Positions 33,003-37,602 of a stretch of DNA of 64,000 nt are shown here, in pieces. The position numbers and the translations under genes are program-made. The notes under the pieces are model-generated. The model saw nothing but the letters and a program-made list of their open reading frames with translations. It had not been told where the DNA came from and ran no database searches. This DNA comes from Phycisphaerales bacterium (GTDB lineage Bacteria; Planctomycetota; Phycisphaerae; Phycisphaerales; UBA1924): assembly GCA_020849105.1 (NCBI GenBank), contig JADLGW010000012.1, forward strand, positions 1 to 64,000, in the 5' to 3' direction. Position 1 is the stretch's first letter. Each line of letters starts with the position of its first letter.

Positions 33003-33635
33003 CTACTTCTTCTCCGCGTCCTTCTTCCGCCGGGCCGCGACGCCCGGGTCGGCGTCGATGATCCGCTTGACAATCGTCTCGGTCAGGCGGTCGGCCGGAT
33101 CGAGCGGGAACCCCTGCCACCGCACCACGCCGTCGGTGGAGATCACCAGGACGTGCGGAATCCCTCGCACGTCGATCTCCGTCGCGGTCCGGCTCCGCGT
33201 ATCGATCGCCTGGGTGTAGGCCATCTCGTTGTCTTCCATGAACCGGCGCACCTTCGACGGCTGCTCGTTGCTGATCCCGATCACGACCAGGTCGTCCCTG
33301 AACTTCTTCTGCAGCGCGTTCAGTTCGGGGATGGTGGCGCGGCACGGCGGGCACCACGTCGCCCAGAAGTCAATGAGGACGACCCTGCCCTCCTTCACCG
33401 GGTGGTCGGTCAACATCTCTTCCACAATGAGTTCCGGGGCCTTCCGCCCACGCAGGTCCTTCCCGGCGTGAATGTCCTTTTTCACGATCTCCGGCCATGC
33501 AGGACCGTCGCTCGCGGCGGGGGCCGCGGACGGGGCGTCAGCGGCGGGAGGGTTGGGCGTCGAATCCTGGGCGTGCGTCGCCGTGCCGGCGACACCAAGC
33601 AGCACGCACGCAAGCCACGTCGGTCGGATGCTCAT
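33003..33635 (-). CDS. TlpA-like thiol-disulfide oxidoreductase
   Basis: 210 residues, starting at the ATG at 33635. A signal peptide (MSIRPTWLACVLLGVAGT) places it outside the cytoplasm. A Pro/Ala-rich linker precedes the thioredoxin fold with the redox site WCPPC at residues 94-98 (LIDFWATWCPPCRATIP) and a cis-Pro region (RGIPHVLVI). It probably reduces apocytochrome c or CuA thiols, which would suit the caa3 oxidase to the left. The tail is Lys/Arg-rich (VAARRKKDAEKK). Confidence 0.88.
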   Translation of the reverse strand: MSIRPTWLACVLLGVAGTATHAQDSTPNPPAADAPSAAPAASDGPAWPEIVKKDIHAGKDLRGRKAPELIVEEMLTDHPVKEGRVVLIDFWATWCPPCRATIPELNALQKKFRDDLVVIGISNEQPSKVRRFMEDNEMAYTQAIDTRSRTATEIDVRGIPHVLVISTDGVVRWQGFPLDPADRLTETIVKRIIDADPGVAARRKKDAEKK

Positions 33636-33715
33636 TCGGCGCCTCCTTCGGCGCACCAATCATAGTGCCGTACCGACTTGACACCCGGCACGACCCCGTT
33701 ACCCTGCCGTTGTCA

Positions 33716-33914
33716 TCGGTGCCCCGTGCGCGGACCGCGCGCCCGGGGTGAAAAGGGAAGCGTGGTGAGGTCCGCACGGACCGAATCCACCGCGGACGCG
33801 CCGCCGTGAAGGGCGGGTAGACGGCTACCCACCGGGCACACGCGCCACTGGTCGCCGCGAGCGACCGGGAAGGCAAGCCCGGACAGGCCCGAAGCCGGAA
33901 GACCTGCCGACGAC
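33716..33914 (+). promoter_or_regulatory. Cobalamin (B12) riboswitch
   Basis: The stretch matches the AdoCbl-class consensus element by element: GGGGTGAAAAGGGAAGC, then GGTGAGG with a paired insert (GGTCCGCACGGACC) and GAATCCACC, a GCCGCCGTGA segment, GCCACTGG, CCGGGAAGGC, then AGCCGGAAGACCTGCC. The B12 box (about 33891-33908) and its GGCAAGCCCGG neighbour are intact. Orientation is plus, so it controls the gene at 34108. No other B12 gene is visible in the window. Confidence 0.93.
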
Positions 33915-33918
33915 AACC

Positions 33919-33966
33919 GACCCCGGCGAACCGGGGCCGGGCTTGGCGGCCCCCGCGAACGGGGCG
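33919..33966 (+). promoter_or_regulatory. Two CGAA-tetraloop hairpins in the leader after the B12 riboswitch
   Basis: CCCCGG-CGAA-CCGGGG (33921-33936) and CCCCG-CGAA-CGGGG (33951-33964) follow the B12 box directly. Neither has a downstream T-run, so they are not ordinary intrinsic terminators. They could act as the expression platform, or pair with the riboswitch in the unbound state. The leader continues for about 140 bases before the start codon. Confidence 0.5.
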
Positions 33967-34107
33967 GCTCGAGCGCCGGCGTGCCCGTTCCCGGCCGCCT
34001 CGCACTCCGCCGCATCCAACCCATCGCAAGGGCCCGGTCGTCACGGGACCGTCCCGCGCGCACACGGGACGCTGCTGGCCCCGTCCGGGGGCCGGAGGTT
34101 CGTCCGC

Positions 34108-34884
34108 ATGGTCCGCAGCGTTGTTGTTGTTGTTGTCGCCGCCGCCGCGCCCGCGTTCGGCCAATGGGCCGCGCACGTCGAGTCCTATGTGCCCGGTGCC
34201 GGCGTGCCCGCGGGGTATGAAGAGCCGTCGCACGCCCTGGGGCAGCCCTCACGCATGACCAGTTTCGGGGCCGTGTCCCCGTTCAACCCGCCGTTTGACG
34301 CGTCCGACCTGGTTTCCATCGGCGCGGGCGGTTCGCTCGTCCTTCGCTTCGACGAGCCGATCACCGACAACCCGCTCCACGAGTTCGGCGTAGACCTCAT
34401 CGTCTTTGGCAACACCGGCTACATCGATTCCGCCTGGCCCGGCGGAGTCTGGGGCGGCGTTCTGGGGGACGGCCGCGGCCTGATCGAGGTCAGCGCCGAC
34501 GGGAGCGACTGGCGTGCGGTGACGCCGCTGGCGGATTCACCGTACCCGACGCTCGGGTATTCCGATCTCTCCGACCCTTACGCACCCGGCCCGGGACTGG
34601 TCCCCTCCGACTTCACGCGGCCTGTGAACCCCGCGTTCGAGCCCACCCTGGGAACAACCTTTGACGAGATTCGCGCCGCGTACAGCGGCTCCGGCGGCGG
34701 CACGGGCGTGGACATCGGCGAGTCTGGCCTCGCGTCCATTTCGTATGTGCGGATCACCAACCCCGTCGCCAGCGGGCATGTGGAAGTCGATGCCATCGCC
34801 GCGGTCTCTGTGCCCGGCCCCGGCGGGCTCGCGTGCTTGACGCTGGCGGCGGTCTTCGGCTCGCGTCGCCGGGGGTGCGCGTGA
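34108..34884 (+). CDS. PEP-CTERM-like surface protein under the B12 riboswitch
   Basis: 258 residues. The ATG at 34108 follows a GGAGG at 34094-34098 and opens a signal peptide (MVRSVVVVVVAAAAPAFG). The mature domain is strand-rich, with the conserved run PFDASDLVSIGAGGSLVLRF and DLIVFGNTGY. The C-terminus is a PEP-CTERM-like sorting tail: VPGPGG, a short hydrophobic span (LACLTLAAVFG), then SRRRG. It would be displayed on or released from the cell surface. As first gene after the cobalamin riboswitch it is expected to be off when B12 is plentiful. It overlaps the next gene by four bases. Confidence 0.85.
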   Translation: MVRSVVVVVVAAAAPAFGQWAAHVESYVPGAGVPAGYEEPSHALGQPSRMTSFGAVSPFNPPFDASDLVSIGAGGSLVLRFDEPITDNPLHEFGVDLIVFGNTGYIDSAWPGGVWGGVLGDGRGLIEVSADGSDWRAVTPLADSPYPTLGYSDLSDPYAPGPGLVPSDFTRPVNPAFEPTLGTTFDEIRAAYSGSGGGTGVDIGESGLASISYVRITNPVASGHVEVDAIAAVSVPGPGGLACLTLAAVFGSRRRGCA

Positions 34885-36401
34885 GGCCGGCATGGGTGAC
34901 GGTGTGCGGGATGCTCGCGGCCGCGGGCGCCCGGGCGCAGGACTGGACGCACCTGGCAGGCAACCCGCAGCGGGTGAGCGTGGCCGCGGCCGCGGTTGTC
35001 CCGGACACGCCGCGGTGGGTCGTCACGAGCGACGAACTCGGGCGGCCGGTCACGTTCTACGGGCAGTCGGGTGTCGTGACGCTGGGCCAGCGGGTTTACG
35101 CCCGCGGCGTCTCCGGCGGGGTGTCGCGGCTGCTGGCGGTGTCGCGGACAACTGGTGTGGTCGTGTGGAGCGCGCCGGTTCCCGCGCCCGTGCTGGAGTC
35201 CTGGGCGGCGCCCACGGTGGATGCGGGGAACGCGGCGGTCCTCGTGGCGGATGGGCCGGCCCTTACGGCGATCGACGCGGCGACCGGTGGTCAGCGGTGG
35301 CAGGCTCCCATGCCGCGCCCGCTGGTGAGCGTTTCGCCGGTGGTCACGGGCGACCTGCACCCCCGTGACCGGGCGTTCGTGGTCGATTACGACGGGGTGG
35401 GCGTCGGCGGGCGGCTGCACTGCATCAACGTCGATCCCTTCGACGCCGCGCTCAACCCGCACCAGCCGGGTGATGAACTGTGGTCGGCCCCGGTCGGCGG
35501 CACGTCCGGGAGCACCGCGGCGTACGCTGCCGGCGTCGTCTATGTGGCCTCGGCGTCGGATCCGGCGGGGTCCAGCGCGGGCGTCGTGTACGCGTTTCCG
35601 GCCGGGTCCACATCGTCCCCAGACCCGCTGTGGGCGACGCCGAACACCGAGCCGCTCGGATTCTTCGGCGGTGTGGCGGTGGAGGGCGGCGGGGTGTACG
35701 CCGCGTCGTACGCCTTCTCCGGGGGGATCGACGCGGCCAACCTTGTGAAACTGGACGCCGCGACGGGAGCGCCGTTGTGGTCGGTGCCCTGCAACCGTAC
35801 GTCGTCGATTCCGGTGCCGCTGCCGGGCGGCCTCGTCGCGCTGTCGGGCGGTCTCCGTGGATTCGGGACGGTGCCGAGCGTGCAAGTGTTCCGCGACGAG
35901 GGCCCGTCCGCGGCGCGTCTGTGGGACTCCGCGCTGGGCTCCTGGCATGACGACAACCTGAACGGGCAGATGGACCCGGGCGAGTACCTGCTCGTCGGCG
36001 GGTGGACCCAGCAGCCCGTGATGACCGCGTCCGGGCTGCTGATCGGTGCGCTCCCGGCCGGGCCCAGCACCACGGGCGCGCCCGCGGACCTCTACCTGCT
36101 GGACATCGATCAGCATCCATCCAGCCCGGCGTTCGTGATGGCACACTTCGTCGGCGCCGGGGCCAGCCCCGCGGTCGCGGACGGATGGGCGTTCACCGTC
36201 GGCCCCGCCGGCCTGTACGCATTCGCGCCGCCCTGCGGGCCCGATTGCAACGCTGACGGCTCGCTGAACCTCGCCGACTTCGGCTGCTTCCAGACCCGAT
36301 TCGCACTCGGTGAGCCCTACGCCGACTGCAACGGCGACGGCGTGCGGAACCTGGCGGACTTCGGGTGCTTCCAGACGCTGTTTGCCCTGGGTTGTCCGTG
36401 A
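34881..36401 (+). CDS. PQQ-type beta-propeller protein with a C-terminal GC-type dockerin
   Basis: 506 residues, from the GTG at 34881 inside the preceding stop. Signal peptide (VTVCGMLAAAGARAQ). Residues 25-450 have blade-like repeats: LAVSRTTGVVVWSAPVP, LTAIDAATGGQRWQAP, LVKLDAATGAPLWSVP. The end is two copies of the dockerin unit (DCNADGSLNLADFGCFQTRF and DCNGDGVRNLADFGCFQTLF, then ALGCP). Beta-propellers include BtuG, the B12-binding surface protein of Bacteroides, so a B12-capture role is conceivable. That link is inference from context; the blades do not prove it. Confidence 0.85.
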   Translation: MRPAWVTVCGMLAAAGARAQDWTHLAGNPQRVSVAAAAVVPDTPRWVVTSDELGRPVTFYGQSGVVTLGQRVYARGVSGGVSRLLAVSRTTGVVVWSAPVPAPVLESWAAPTVDAGNAAVLVADGPALTAIDAATGGQRWQAPMPRPLVSVSPVVTGDLHPRDRAFVVDYDGVGVGGRLHCINVDPFDAALNPHQPGDELWSAPVGGTSGSTAAYAAGVVYVASASDPAGSSAGVVYAFPAGSTSSPDPLWATPNTEPLGFFGGVAVEGGGVYAASYAFSGGIDAANLVKLDAATGAPLWSVPCNRTSSIPVPLPGGLVALSGGLRGFGTVPSVQVFRDEGPSAARLWDSALGSWHDDNLNGQMDPGEYLLVGGWTQQPVMTASGLLIGALPAGPSTTGAPADLYLLDIDQHPSSPAFVMAHFVGAGASPAVADGWAFTVGPAGLYAFAPPCGPDCNADGSLNLADFGCFQTRFALGEPYADCNGDGVRNLADFGCFQTLFALGCP

Positions 36402-36421
36402 GAGGACGCGAAGGCCGCGAC

Positions 36422-37360
36422 ATGCGAAGCAGAGATGGAACGCGGAGTTCGGCGGGGATCCGGGGCGAAGCCCAGTTGGCACCGGCATCGCTGCGCCTCC
36501 GGGCTCTTCGCATTCACGGTCTTCTGTCCATCCTCGTTCCCCCGCACCCACCGCGCTCACTCCGCGCCTTCACACTACTCGAACTGCTGGTCAGCATCAG
36601 CGTGATCTCGCTGCTGATCGGCCTGCTGCTGCCGGCCCTCGGCGCGTCCCGCCGCACCGCGCACACGGTTCAGTGTTCCTCGAACCAGCGGCAACTCGTC
36701 CTCGCCTGGACTCTCTACGCCGCCGACTACCGCGGCTTCTGTGCGCCGGCGGCGCGCGAATCCGACCCGGCGGGCCCCGTGTACTGGTGGGGGCGCGTCG
36801 CCGGCGGCGCGACTCCCACGGTCATCCGTGACGACGGCCTGCTCTCGCCGTACCTCGCCGATTCCCTGCACGAGGGCTCCGTGCTCGAGTGTCCCGCGCA
36901 GCCCTGGGGGTCCTACCGTGCCCAGCCCATGTCCATCCCGGCCCCCGGACAGCCGACGAGCACCTACGGGTACAACGGGTACGGCCTTTGCCCACCGGCG
37001 GCTCCCGGGTGGAACCTCTCCATCGGTGCGCAGCGATGGCAACGCGTCGACGACCTCGCGCAGCCCAGCGGCGTGTTTGTGTTCGCCGATGCGATGCTCC
37101 CCGGCACGCCCATCCGAAACTCCGCACTCCTGGACCCGCCCTTGTTGTTCACCGGTGGTGCCTGGTCCCCCAACTCCTCGCCCACGACGGTCTTTCGCCA
37201 CCTGGGCGGGCCCTTTGGCTCCGTGTCCGCCGGTCGCGCCGACGGCAGCGCCACGCTGGCCGCGGCCGAGGGCGCCTGGCTCACGCATCCGAACCTGCGC
37301 ATAGGCTCCGTCGGCATGGACAACGAGCACTACGTTCCGGGCTGGGTTCTGTGGCGCTGA
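36422..37360 (+). CDS. Prepilin-type (DUF1559-like) secreted protein in the B12 operon
   Basis: 312 residues from the ATG at 36422. A type IV prepilin-like motif, RAFTLLELLVSISVISLLIG, lies at residues 48-67, so the leader would be ~49 residues, much longer than usual. No closer ATG/GTG is in frame; the start is uncertain. The mature part contains an H-x9-DG-like arrangement (FRHLGGPFGSVSAGRADG) and a VFADAMLPG element common in planctomycete 'DUF1559' proteins, plus PYLADSLHEGSVLECPA. It follows the propeller gene by 20 bases and overlaps the next gene. Probably extracellular, with unknown role. Confidence 0.75.
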   Translation: MRSRDGTRSSAGIRGEAQLAPASLRLRALRIHGLLSILVPPHPPRSLRAFTLLELLVSISVISLLIGLLLPALGASRRTAHTVQCSSNQRQLVLAWTLYAADYRGFCAPAARESDPAGPVYWWGRVAGGATPTVIRDDGLLSPYLADSLHEGSVLECPAQPWGSYRAQPMSIPAPGQPTSTYGYNGYGLCPPAAPGWNLSIGAQRWQRVDDLAQPSGVFVFADAMLPGTPIRNSALLDPPLLFTGGAWSPNSSPTTVFRHLGGPFGSVSAGRADGSATLAAAEGAWLTHPNLRIGSVGMDNEHYVPGWVLWR

Positions 37361-37602
37361 GTCCTGATGACCTGCCTGATGGGCCGGTGGACCGCTGCCT
37401 GTGCGCCGGCGTCACGTTTGCCGAGTTCAAGAGGCGCGCCGACCGGACCGGTGCGACCATGGATGAACTCCAGCGTGCCACCGGATGCGGCAGAGGCTGC
37501 GGCCTCTGCCGGCCCTACCTGGTGCTGGCCCTCAGGACCGGCAGGACACGGCTGCCGGTGCTGAGCCCCGCCCAGTTCAGTGACCTGGGCGTGTCGCCTT
37601 AG
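37351..37602 (+). CDS. BFD-like [2Fe-2S]-binding small protein
   Basis: 83 residues from the GTG at 37351, which overlaps the preceding stop by 10 bases. A CLCAGVTFAEFKRRADRTGA stretch followed by TGCGRGCGLCRPY fits the BFD-type (bacterioferritin-associated ferredoxin-like) fold, with Cys pairs CxC and CxxC and ~32 residues between. Such domains hold a [2Fe-2S] cluster and regulate iron or redox enzymes. As the last gene of a B12-riboswitch operon it is unexpected. It could form a cytoplasmic partner for an as yet unlinked transporter or reductase. Confidence 0.75.
   Translation: MALSPDDLPDGPVDRCLCAGVTFAEFKRRADRTGATMDELQRATGCGRGCGLCRPYLVLALRTGRTRLPVLSPAQFSDLGVSP

Follow-up and report, generated by a model that had tools for sequence, protein, structure and literature searches.

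Transport of B12 into Gram-negative bacteria is thought to need a TonB-dependent receptor. The closest described systems also include dedicated capture proteins: BtuH2 of the gut bacterium Bacteroides thetaiotaomicron (structure 7biz) binds B12 through its BtuH domain and is described as required for efficient B12 transport (PMC8941943), and eight diverse proteins of the DUF4465 family, to which BtuJ belongs, are reported to bind B12 (PMC13398666). In the current study, we characterized a locus in a 64,000-nucleotide stretch of DNA from a Phycisphaerales bacterium (assembly GCA_020849105.1, contig JADLGW010000012.1, positions 1 to 64,000), hereafter the window, in which a cobalamin riboswitch precedes four closely packed genes, g1 to g4. 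We consider it quite probable that this cassette is a B12-repressed operon, predicted to catch B12 at the planctomycete cell surface. The predicted binder is likely g1, a distant relative of BtuH, rather than the beta-propeller g2, and g3 and g4 encode a pilin-like protein and a Bfd-type ferredoxin.

Organization of the operon

The cobalamin riboswitch aptamer (RF00174) occupies positions 33700..33925 of the plus strand and is full length, the covariance model matching over its positions 1-189 (cmscan, 61.3 bits vs. a gathering score of 31.5, E 1e-12). The first-pass annotation of the window had reported a near-complete riboswitch starting at 33716, which lies 16 bases inside the element. This aptamer is the sole RF00174 match in the 3.29-Mb, ~94% complete, 61-contig assembly of the window's genome. 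All four genes lie downstream of it on the same strand. The first, g1 (34108..34884), encodes a 258-aa BtuH-like domain protein and candidate B12 binder, recognized by a chain of profile comparisons and a structure model. It is followed by g2 (34881..36401), encoding a BamB-type PQQ beta-propeller with a GC-type dockerin tail (~36237-36395), by g3 (36422..37360), encoding a type IV pilin-like protein with a large globular domain, and by g4 (37351..37602), encoding a Bfd-type [2Fe-2S] protein of 83 aa. The tight packing claimed earlier for these genes was borne out: the GTG start codon of g2 overlaps the stop codon of g1 by 4 bases, g3 begins 20 bases past the stop codon of g2, and g3 and g4 overlap by 10 bases. 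It also holds that the four products include no known B12 enzyme, no TonB receptor and no component of BtuCDF. No intrinsic terminator was found, and the region 3′ of the aptamer folds no better than shuffled sequence (z -0.16).

g1, a BtuH-like candidate B12 binder

No Pfam family matches g1 itself at E 1, and its NCBIfam match is only at chance level (E 0.13). The kinship with BtuH became visible through longer homologues of g1, 15 of which form alignment A1; this and two further alignments (A2 and A3) were picked by hand, by motif, from relatives in the order. The A1 profile matches the C-terminal domain of the BtuG1/BtuGH lipoprotein (8blw) at E 2e-38 and BtuH2 (7biz) at E 2e-29, and A1 is homologous to A2, which represents the window's own g1 subfamily (hhalign 99.9%, E 1e-36). 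The predicted structure of g1 is confident (predicted local distance difference test, pLDDT, 91.6), and when 987 chains were realigned to it, the best was 7biz (Z 12.9, root-mean-square deviation 2.7, 139 residues aligned), followed by 8blw (Z 12.2). We also compared the published B12 contacts of BtuH2 (Gln333, Asn399, Phe401, His476, Tyr510, Trp511, Trp577, and Leu578), with equivalences read off the alignment of A1 to the BtuH-domain structures by residue counting. The equivalent of Asn399 is invariant, both in A1 (15/15) and in A4, an alignment of the window's g1 with 39 of 80 named g1 homologues (40/40). The profile and fold comparisons make the description of g1 as a distant, BtuH-like relative of the Bacteroides protein well supported.

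A signal peptide and a PEP-CTERM-like C-terminus of g1 were judged by eye. The earlier labeling of g1 as PEP-CTERM-like therefore stands as far as the visible tail is concerned, but not at the level of a family match, since neither PF07589 nor TIGR02595 matches g1. Among the 40 sequences of A4, PF07589 matches four.

Conservation of the cassette

To the window's genome we added 40 genomes of its family and order. RF00174 matches were found in 38 of these 41 genomes at 40 places; at two places the match (27.3 and 27.1 bits) falls short of the gathering score. Downstream genes were read at all 40 places by leave-one-out tblastn, with open reading frames (ORFs) chosen by homology. The g1 family follows the riboswitch at 33 places (34 matches, that at locus L065 seemingly to a dockerin only) and the g3 family at 36. 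Since the same block turns up downstream of riboswitches throughout the order, its pairing with the riboswitch in the window is not a matter of chance. Three arrangements recur: g1, BamB-type propeller, pilin and Bfd, as in the window; another propeller, a longer g1 homologue, pilin and Bfd; and g1, pilin and Bfd, free of a propeller. In some instances of these arrangements no Bfd gene was detected. In one genome (G013) the cassette is split over two loci (L064 and L068), each with its own riboswitch, into g2 with g3 and g1 with g4 (behind the 27.3-bit riboswitch).

The seven places with no g1 match have varied backgrounds. L064 is the g2-g3 part of the split set in G013, L065 is a second riboswitch of genome G038, and at L045 the contig ends 844 bases downstream of the riboswitch. 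A pilin-like gene alone follows the riboswitch at L049, and at L032 a remote g1-like gene had been missed by tblastn and was included as a row of A1. Other genes take the place of g1 at L048 (a TonB receptor) and L056 (a DUF4465 gene). In genome G037, a DUF4465 domain (3.5e-33) that matches solved DUF4465 chains, including BtuJ1 (9fct), sits in the slot ahead of g3 and g4; this genome also encodes a TonB receptor, elsewhere. With a BtuH-like g1 as the usual occupant and DUF4465 in G037, two B12-binding families fill the same slot before g3 and g4. DUF4465 (PF14717) was not found in the four genes of the window. The idea of corrinoid capture at the surface, already put forward in the first-pass annotation, has thus gained both the likeness of g1 to BtuH, by fold and by profile via the longer homologues, and the presence of DUF4465/BtuJ in one relative.

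Searching from the g1 side led to the same association. A pattern-limited scan with the g1 alignment against 84,980 species genomes gave 272 relatives, of which the best 80 were kept; 71 of these carry planctomycete titles, five are unnamed bacteria and four have other names, and the cultured Lacipirellula limnantheis I41 is among them. The contigs with cassettes titled Leptolyngbya (L074), Caulobacteraceae (L113), Limnohabitans (L146), and Bacteroidia (L150) are probably misnamed or mixed bins of metagenome-assembled genomes rather than transfers. A few contigs are, judging from their lengths, common to both searches (e.g., L077, L097, and L134), so that the two sets of counts are not fully independent. 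The first-pass annotation had named absence of the riboswitch before these genes in relatives as grounds for abandoning its proposal. This did not come about: we found a riboswitch upstream of g1 in 74 of 75 testable loci, the five loci with <350 bases upstream being left out; L137 was the sole negative. In 56 of the 80 loci a B12-box pattern precedes the g1 frame by ≤1.2 kb, while elsewhere in the 1,073,390 bases of these loci it occurs once more on the plus strand (L134) and never on the minus strand. cmscan agreed in all eight pattern-bearing loci on which it was run and found the riboswitch in 17 g1 loci with no pattern. The riboswitch of L134 is supported by the pattern and by a 27-bit match under the gathering score, and in L095 and L099 it lies ~2.3 kb upstream of g1 with other cassette genes between. 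Homologues of g3 were present in 74 of the 80 loci, in L095 upstream of g1; they were not found in L078, L082, L089, L099, L134, and L139. In L. limnantheis the riboswitch leads into a DUF1559 pilin frame (5.3e-40); next come a protein with a dockerin tail, a frame matching DUF5522 and finally g1.

The propeller, pilin-like and Bfd-type proteins

g2 matches PQQ_2 (2e-14) and dockerin_GC (1.4e-7) and has a signal peptide by eye. Its profile matches BamB (E 4e-9), PQQ enzymes and dockerins. Alignment A5 holds 22 of 23 g2 sequences, L095 being left out. The first-pass annotation had drawn a parallel between this propeller and BtuG, which had to be given up: g2 is of the BamB type, and in this comparison of sequences neither BtuG nor YncE is among its 46 profile matches at E 0.1. 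The propeller of the other cassette type was likewise tried as a BtuG and rejected, YncE being reached only at E 0.12 and almost no Pfam family matching.

g3 carries the prepilin N-methylation motif (N_methyl, 23.6 bits vs. a cut-off of 21.2), and its match to DUF1559 (PF07596) is below the cut-off (17.9 vs. 23.3 bits). In alignment A6, consisting of 36 of the 74 g3 homologues and the window's g3, N_methyl was found in 31 of 37 sequences and DUF1559 in 32 of 37 at E 0.01. When the g3 profile was searched against the window's genome, the operon copy scored 311 bits over the whole model and was the unique full-length match; 47 other places reached ≤96 bits, nearly all of them over the N-terminus only. 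The globular domain of g3 is specific to the locus. The structure model (pLDDT 86.1) shows a pilin-like helix and a large globular part; in the fold search weak pilin matches led, PilA4 being the best (Z 5.1), and the globular part had no strong match in the PDB. About 48 residues precede the prepilin motif (window 36422-36564). Usual prepilin leaders are far shorter, and the annotated start codon is therefore uncertain, the real one probably lying further in. The type of g3 motif tracks the presence of g2 in the 74 named loci (22/22 with g2 and 52/52 without); since it also follows clades, we did not use it as evidence. In the order set, L031 has g2 and a g3 with no motif.

g4 matches Fer2_BFD with 28.4 bits (cut-off 26), and its profile matches bacterioferritin-associated ferredoxin at E 1e-5. 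In alignment A7, which holds the window's g4 and 25 of 29 homologues (L079, L082, L090, and L133 left out), Fer2_BFD was matched by 25 of 26 sequences, and the CxC...CxxC cysteines C16, C18, C50, and C53 are invariant in all 26.

B12 physiology and import genes

The window's organism seems, from its gene content, unable to make the corrin ring. CbiC, the only gene of the corrin pathway for which we searched, was found in none of the 41 genomes and in 7 of 14 control genomes. MetH is represented in the window's genome by a Met_synt_B12 match of 141.6 bits and by a truncated piece scoring 964.3 bits against TIGR02082 (cut-off 1010.85).

No TonB-dependent receptor was found in the window's ~94% complete genome with either the barrel (PF00593) or the plug (PF07715) model. 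Across the order set, the two models single out an identical group of 16 genomes among the 41. In 23 of the remaining 25, which are receptor-free, g1-family and g3 genes lie behind riboswitches, the exceptions being G005, with no riboswitch match, and G029, where the contig ends. Only one of the 16 receptor-bearing genomes, G036, has its receptor behind a riboswitch, in an operon (L048:3659-7335) in which the riboswitch is followed by the TonB receptor, a diphthamide-synthase-like gene (Diphthami_syn_2), DUF6580 and DUF5522. Among 36 genomes examined of the 80 with named cassettes, nine have a TonB receptor match, seven of them above the cut-off. L. limnantheis, with its chromosome in a single record, carries the cassette and has no TonB receptor match.

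FecCD-type permease genes occur in 38 of the 41 genomes, with strong matches (E <1e-50) in 35. The sole one in the window's genome lies at G000:C7:9839-10741 (L071). We considered it as a sure BtuC and rejected this, as NCBIfam is undecided and no binding-protein or ATPase gene adjoins it. By eye, its neighbors are GNAT-like, PilZ-like, and ATP synthase epsilon-like genes. The genome's sole PF01497 match (42.2 bits, cut-off 27.5) is on another contig.

Further families and neighboring genes

Directly behind or within cobalamin-riboswitch operons we noticed by eye a PEP-CTERM or dockerin-tailed family with the pattern WVGxGxNxAxLVIDWxDG...WGYRWDG (L045:1-654, minus strand; L061:3541-4578, minus strand; L099:6784-7749; L095:6734-7609). 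It has no Pfam domain of its own and is a candidate for a further corrinoid-handling surface family. A small cysteine-rich protein, DUF5522, is present in both the G036 operon (L048) and the Lacipirellula cassette (L099); given its place in the latter, it may be the counterpart of g4. At L041:6424-7841 (minus strand), a MoeA gene (MoeA_N 3.9e-34) and a ThiS/MoaD-like gene (1.7e-7) come right after Bfd. L067:5994-8010 (minus strand) has a MoeA-like gene of the same cluster and, by eye, a small ThiS/MoaD-like one. In the window, a divergent TlpA/ResA-like thioredoxin gene (33003-33659, minus strand) lies upstream of the riboswitch. It was rejected as a part of the system, its kind having turned up at just one further locus, at a distance of 4 kb.

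Proposed function and alternatives

In the mechanism we propose, scarcity of B12 would relieve the riboswitch and the operon would be expressed. After export, the g1 protein would stay anchored to the cell surface through its tail and bind B12 in the manner of BtuH, with the dockerin-tailed propeller g2 as an exposed partner that may play a BtuG-like role although it comes from another family. As a dedicated pilin-like protein, g3 could build or tip a short filament that displays g1 and g2 with their ligand or hands them on. g4 would be a cytoplasmic electron carrier, its simplest task being to reduce the cobalt of the imported corrinoid before adenosylation or methylation, and import across the inner membrane would be left to a FecCD-type permease encoded elsewhere. 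Capture of B12 by the cassette is well supported by inference, and the best reading of G036 is that in this relative a BtuB-type operon stands where the cassette stands in others.

Several observations weigh against this proposal. Direct searches with A2 and A4, the profiles of the g1 subfamily to which the window's protein belongs, did not find BtuH, and the link therefore rests on the longer homologues and the structure model. The jelly-roll fold is a common one, with PAPP-A (Z 10.5) and chains of carbohydrate-binding module (CBM) and lectin type (Z ≤10.2) next in the list after the two BtuH-domain chains. Foldseek placed 8blw at the top (E 4.8e-7), although the two superposed only loosely (TMq 0.36), and 7biz was absent among its best 50 matches. 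Among the published BtuH2 contacts that can be placed, the window subfamily keeps only Asn399: Gln333 is represented by Gln in 12 of the 15 A1 sequences but not in the window group, and the loop bearing His476, Tyr510, and Trp511 is either absent from that group or cannot be aligned, the other contacts being variable or not alignable in the family. g4 was detected behind just 20 of the 40 riboswitches, probably an undercount given the short query. As 10 of the 16 receptor-bearing genomes also carry a g1 gene, the cassette is not only a replacement for the receptor. Convincing FecCD genes are lacking in four genomes with the cassette (none in G007 and G019, weak only in G018 and G022), while that of the window's genome stands alone and could, by its NCBIfam scores, serve either B12 or iron. 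Finally, a cultured planctomycete with MetH and no B12 synthesis is described as needing no B12 in the medium tested (PMC10509075).

We give about even weight to the view that the cassette only concentrates B12 at the surface, with a so far unrecognised channel elsewhere admitting it and the pilin serving export or display of g1 and g2. Pilin-like proteins also form the pseudopili of type II secretion. The operon contains no channel protein, g2 and some g1 homologues end in dockerin or PEP-CTERM tails, and all this would suit such a role. B12, at 1355 Da, exceeds the ~600-Da limit of porins. The DUF4465/BtuJ proteins, described as capture proteins on vesicles of B. thetaiotaomicron (PMC12751083), argue for concentration at the surface, but the statement that porins pass only ~600 Da (PMC5394234) argues against it, and no candidate channel was identified in a search limited to TonB receptors. 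A bolder extension of the capture model is a TonB-independent route, in which a B12-repressed filament of g3 would carry or pull g1, g2 and their ligand through the envelope, perhaps at crateriform complexes, and would stand in for BtuB across many Phycisphaerales and in certain planctomycetes outside this order. We regard it as doubtful. Such a hypothetical pilin-based passage of the outer membrane is worth testing because of the same porin limit and because gold-labelled dextran is described on pili-like fibres at the crateriform structures of Planctopirus and Gemmata, for which a role in uptake was speculated (PMC5394234).

It is also conceivable, if improbable, that the proteins mediate adhesion to B12-producing partners such as algae, with scarcity as a mere cue and g1 as a sugar-binding jelly-roll. 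The CBM and lectin-type chains matching the g1 model at Z ~10 are in agreement with this, as is the association of Phycisphaera-type bacteria with algae (PMC11136935). Yet the two BtuH-domain chains lead that list at Z 12.9 and 12.2, the g1 homologues reach BtuH-domain chains at 2e-29 and 2e-38, and in G037 the slot is taken over by DUF4465. Doubt might further be cast on the extent of the operon: the detection of g4 in only half of the 40 places and the many pilin-like genes in the genome (48 matches to the g3 profile) would be expected if the riboswitch governed g1 alone, or g1 and g2, and the pilin and Bfd genes were bystanders. We think this quite improbable, as g3 follows 36 of 40 riboswitches and has a locus-specific globular domain, g3 and g4 of G013 sit behind two separate riboswitches, the genes of the window overlap, and in Lacipirellula the DUF1559 pilin frame (5.3e-40) comes first after the riboswitch. 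A BtuB that is present but was missed is very improbable too. The assembly is indeed only ~94% complete and in 61 contigs; however, plug and barrel do not differ over which 16 of the 41 genomes have a receptor, eight of the 25 without one have a stated completeness of 97-100%, and the single-record Lacipirellula chromosome has the cassette and no receptor.

Comparison with known systems

The capture model for the cassette can be set beside several known systems. Unlike BtuB-type, TonB-dependent cobalamin operons, the window's operon has no TonB-dependent receptor, and none was found in its genome, whereas G036, of the same order, has a receptor in this position. The pilin-like g3 resembles planctomycete DUF1559/prepilin-like proteins in its prepilin motif and DUF1559-like start, the Lacipirellula pilin being a true DUF1559 protein; it differs from them in standing behind a B12 riboswitch and in its locus-specific globular domain. 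The pili-like fibres described at crateriform structures (PMC5394234) belong to the same comparison, and any tie between them and g3 would be hypothetical. g4 shares the [2Fe-2S] domain and cysteine pattern of Bfd; its context is B12 capture, and none of the four operon genes, to which our search was confined, encodes a bacterioferritin.

The closest parallels are BtuH (7biz) and BtuG1/BtuGH (8blw) of B. thetaiotaomicron, with which the g1 family shares the domain fold and, via longer homologues, profile similarity, as well as a position behind cobalamin riboswitches and an apparent direction to the surface (described for the Bacteroides proteins in PMC8941943 and PMC12751083). A propeller beside a BtuH-like domain is common to BtuG and the window, but the two are fused in BtuGH and encoded by adjacent genes here, and g2 is a PQQ_2-type protein with a dockerin. 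The g1 subfamily of the window is shorter than BtuH, keeps part of the published contacts, and has, partly as judged by eye, PEP-CTERM-like or dockerin tails rather than a lipoprotein signal. DUF4465/BtuJ (PMC13398666, PMC12751083) is absent from the window's operon and present in the equivalent riboswitch operon of G037, before pilin and Bfd. The system was at first called undescribed, which is too broad, as both BtuH and DUF4465 have been described before, in Bacteroides and beyond. The novelty lies in their being joined, under riboswitch control, to a Bfd-type protein and to a pilin-like one specific to the locus, in many cases in genomes where no TonB receptor was found; we did not find the combination of riboswitch, capture protein, pilin and Bfd in the open-licence literature searched. 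The cassette offers a concrete, regulated candidate for the means by which large molecules pass the planctomycete outer membrane, and it widens the setting of BtuH and DUF4465 capture proteins, known from gut Bacteroides, to include a planctomycete type of operon.

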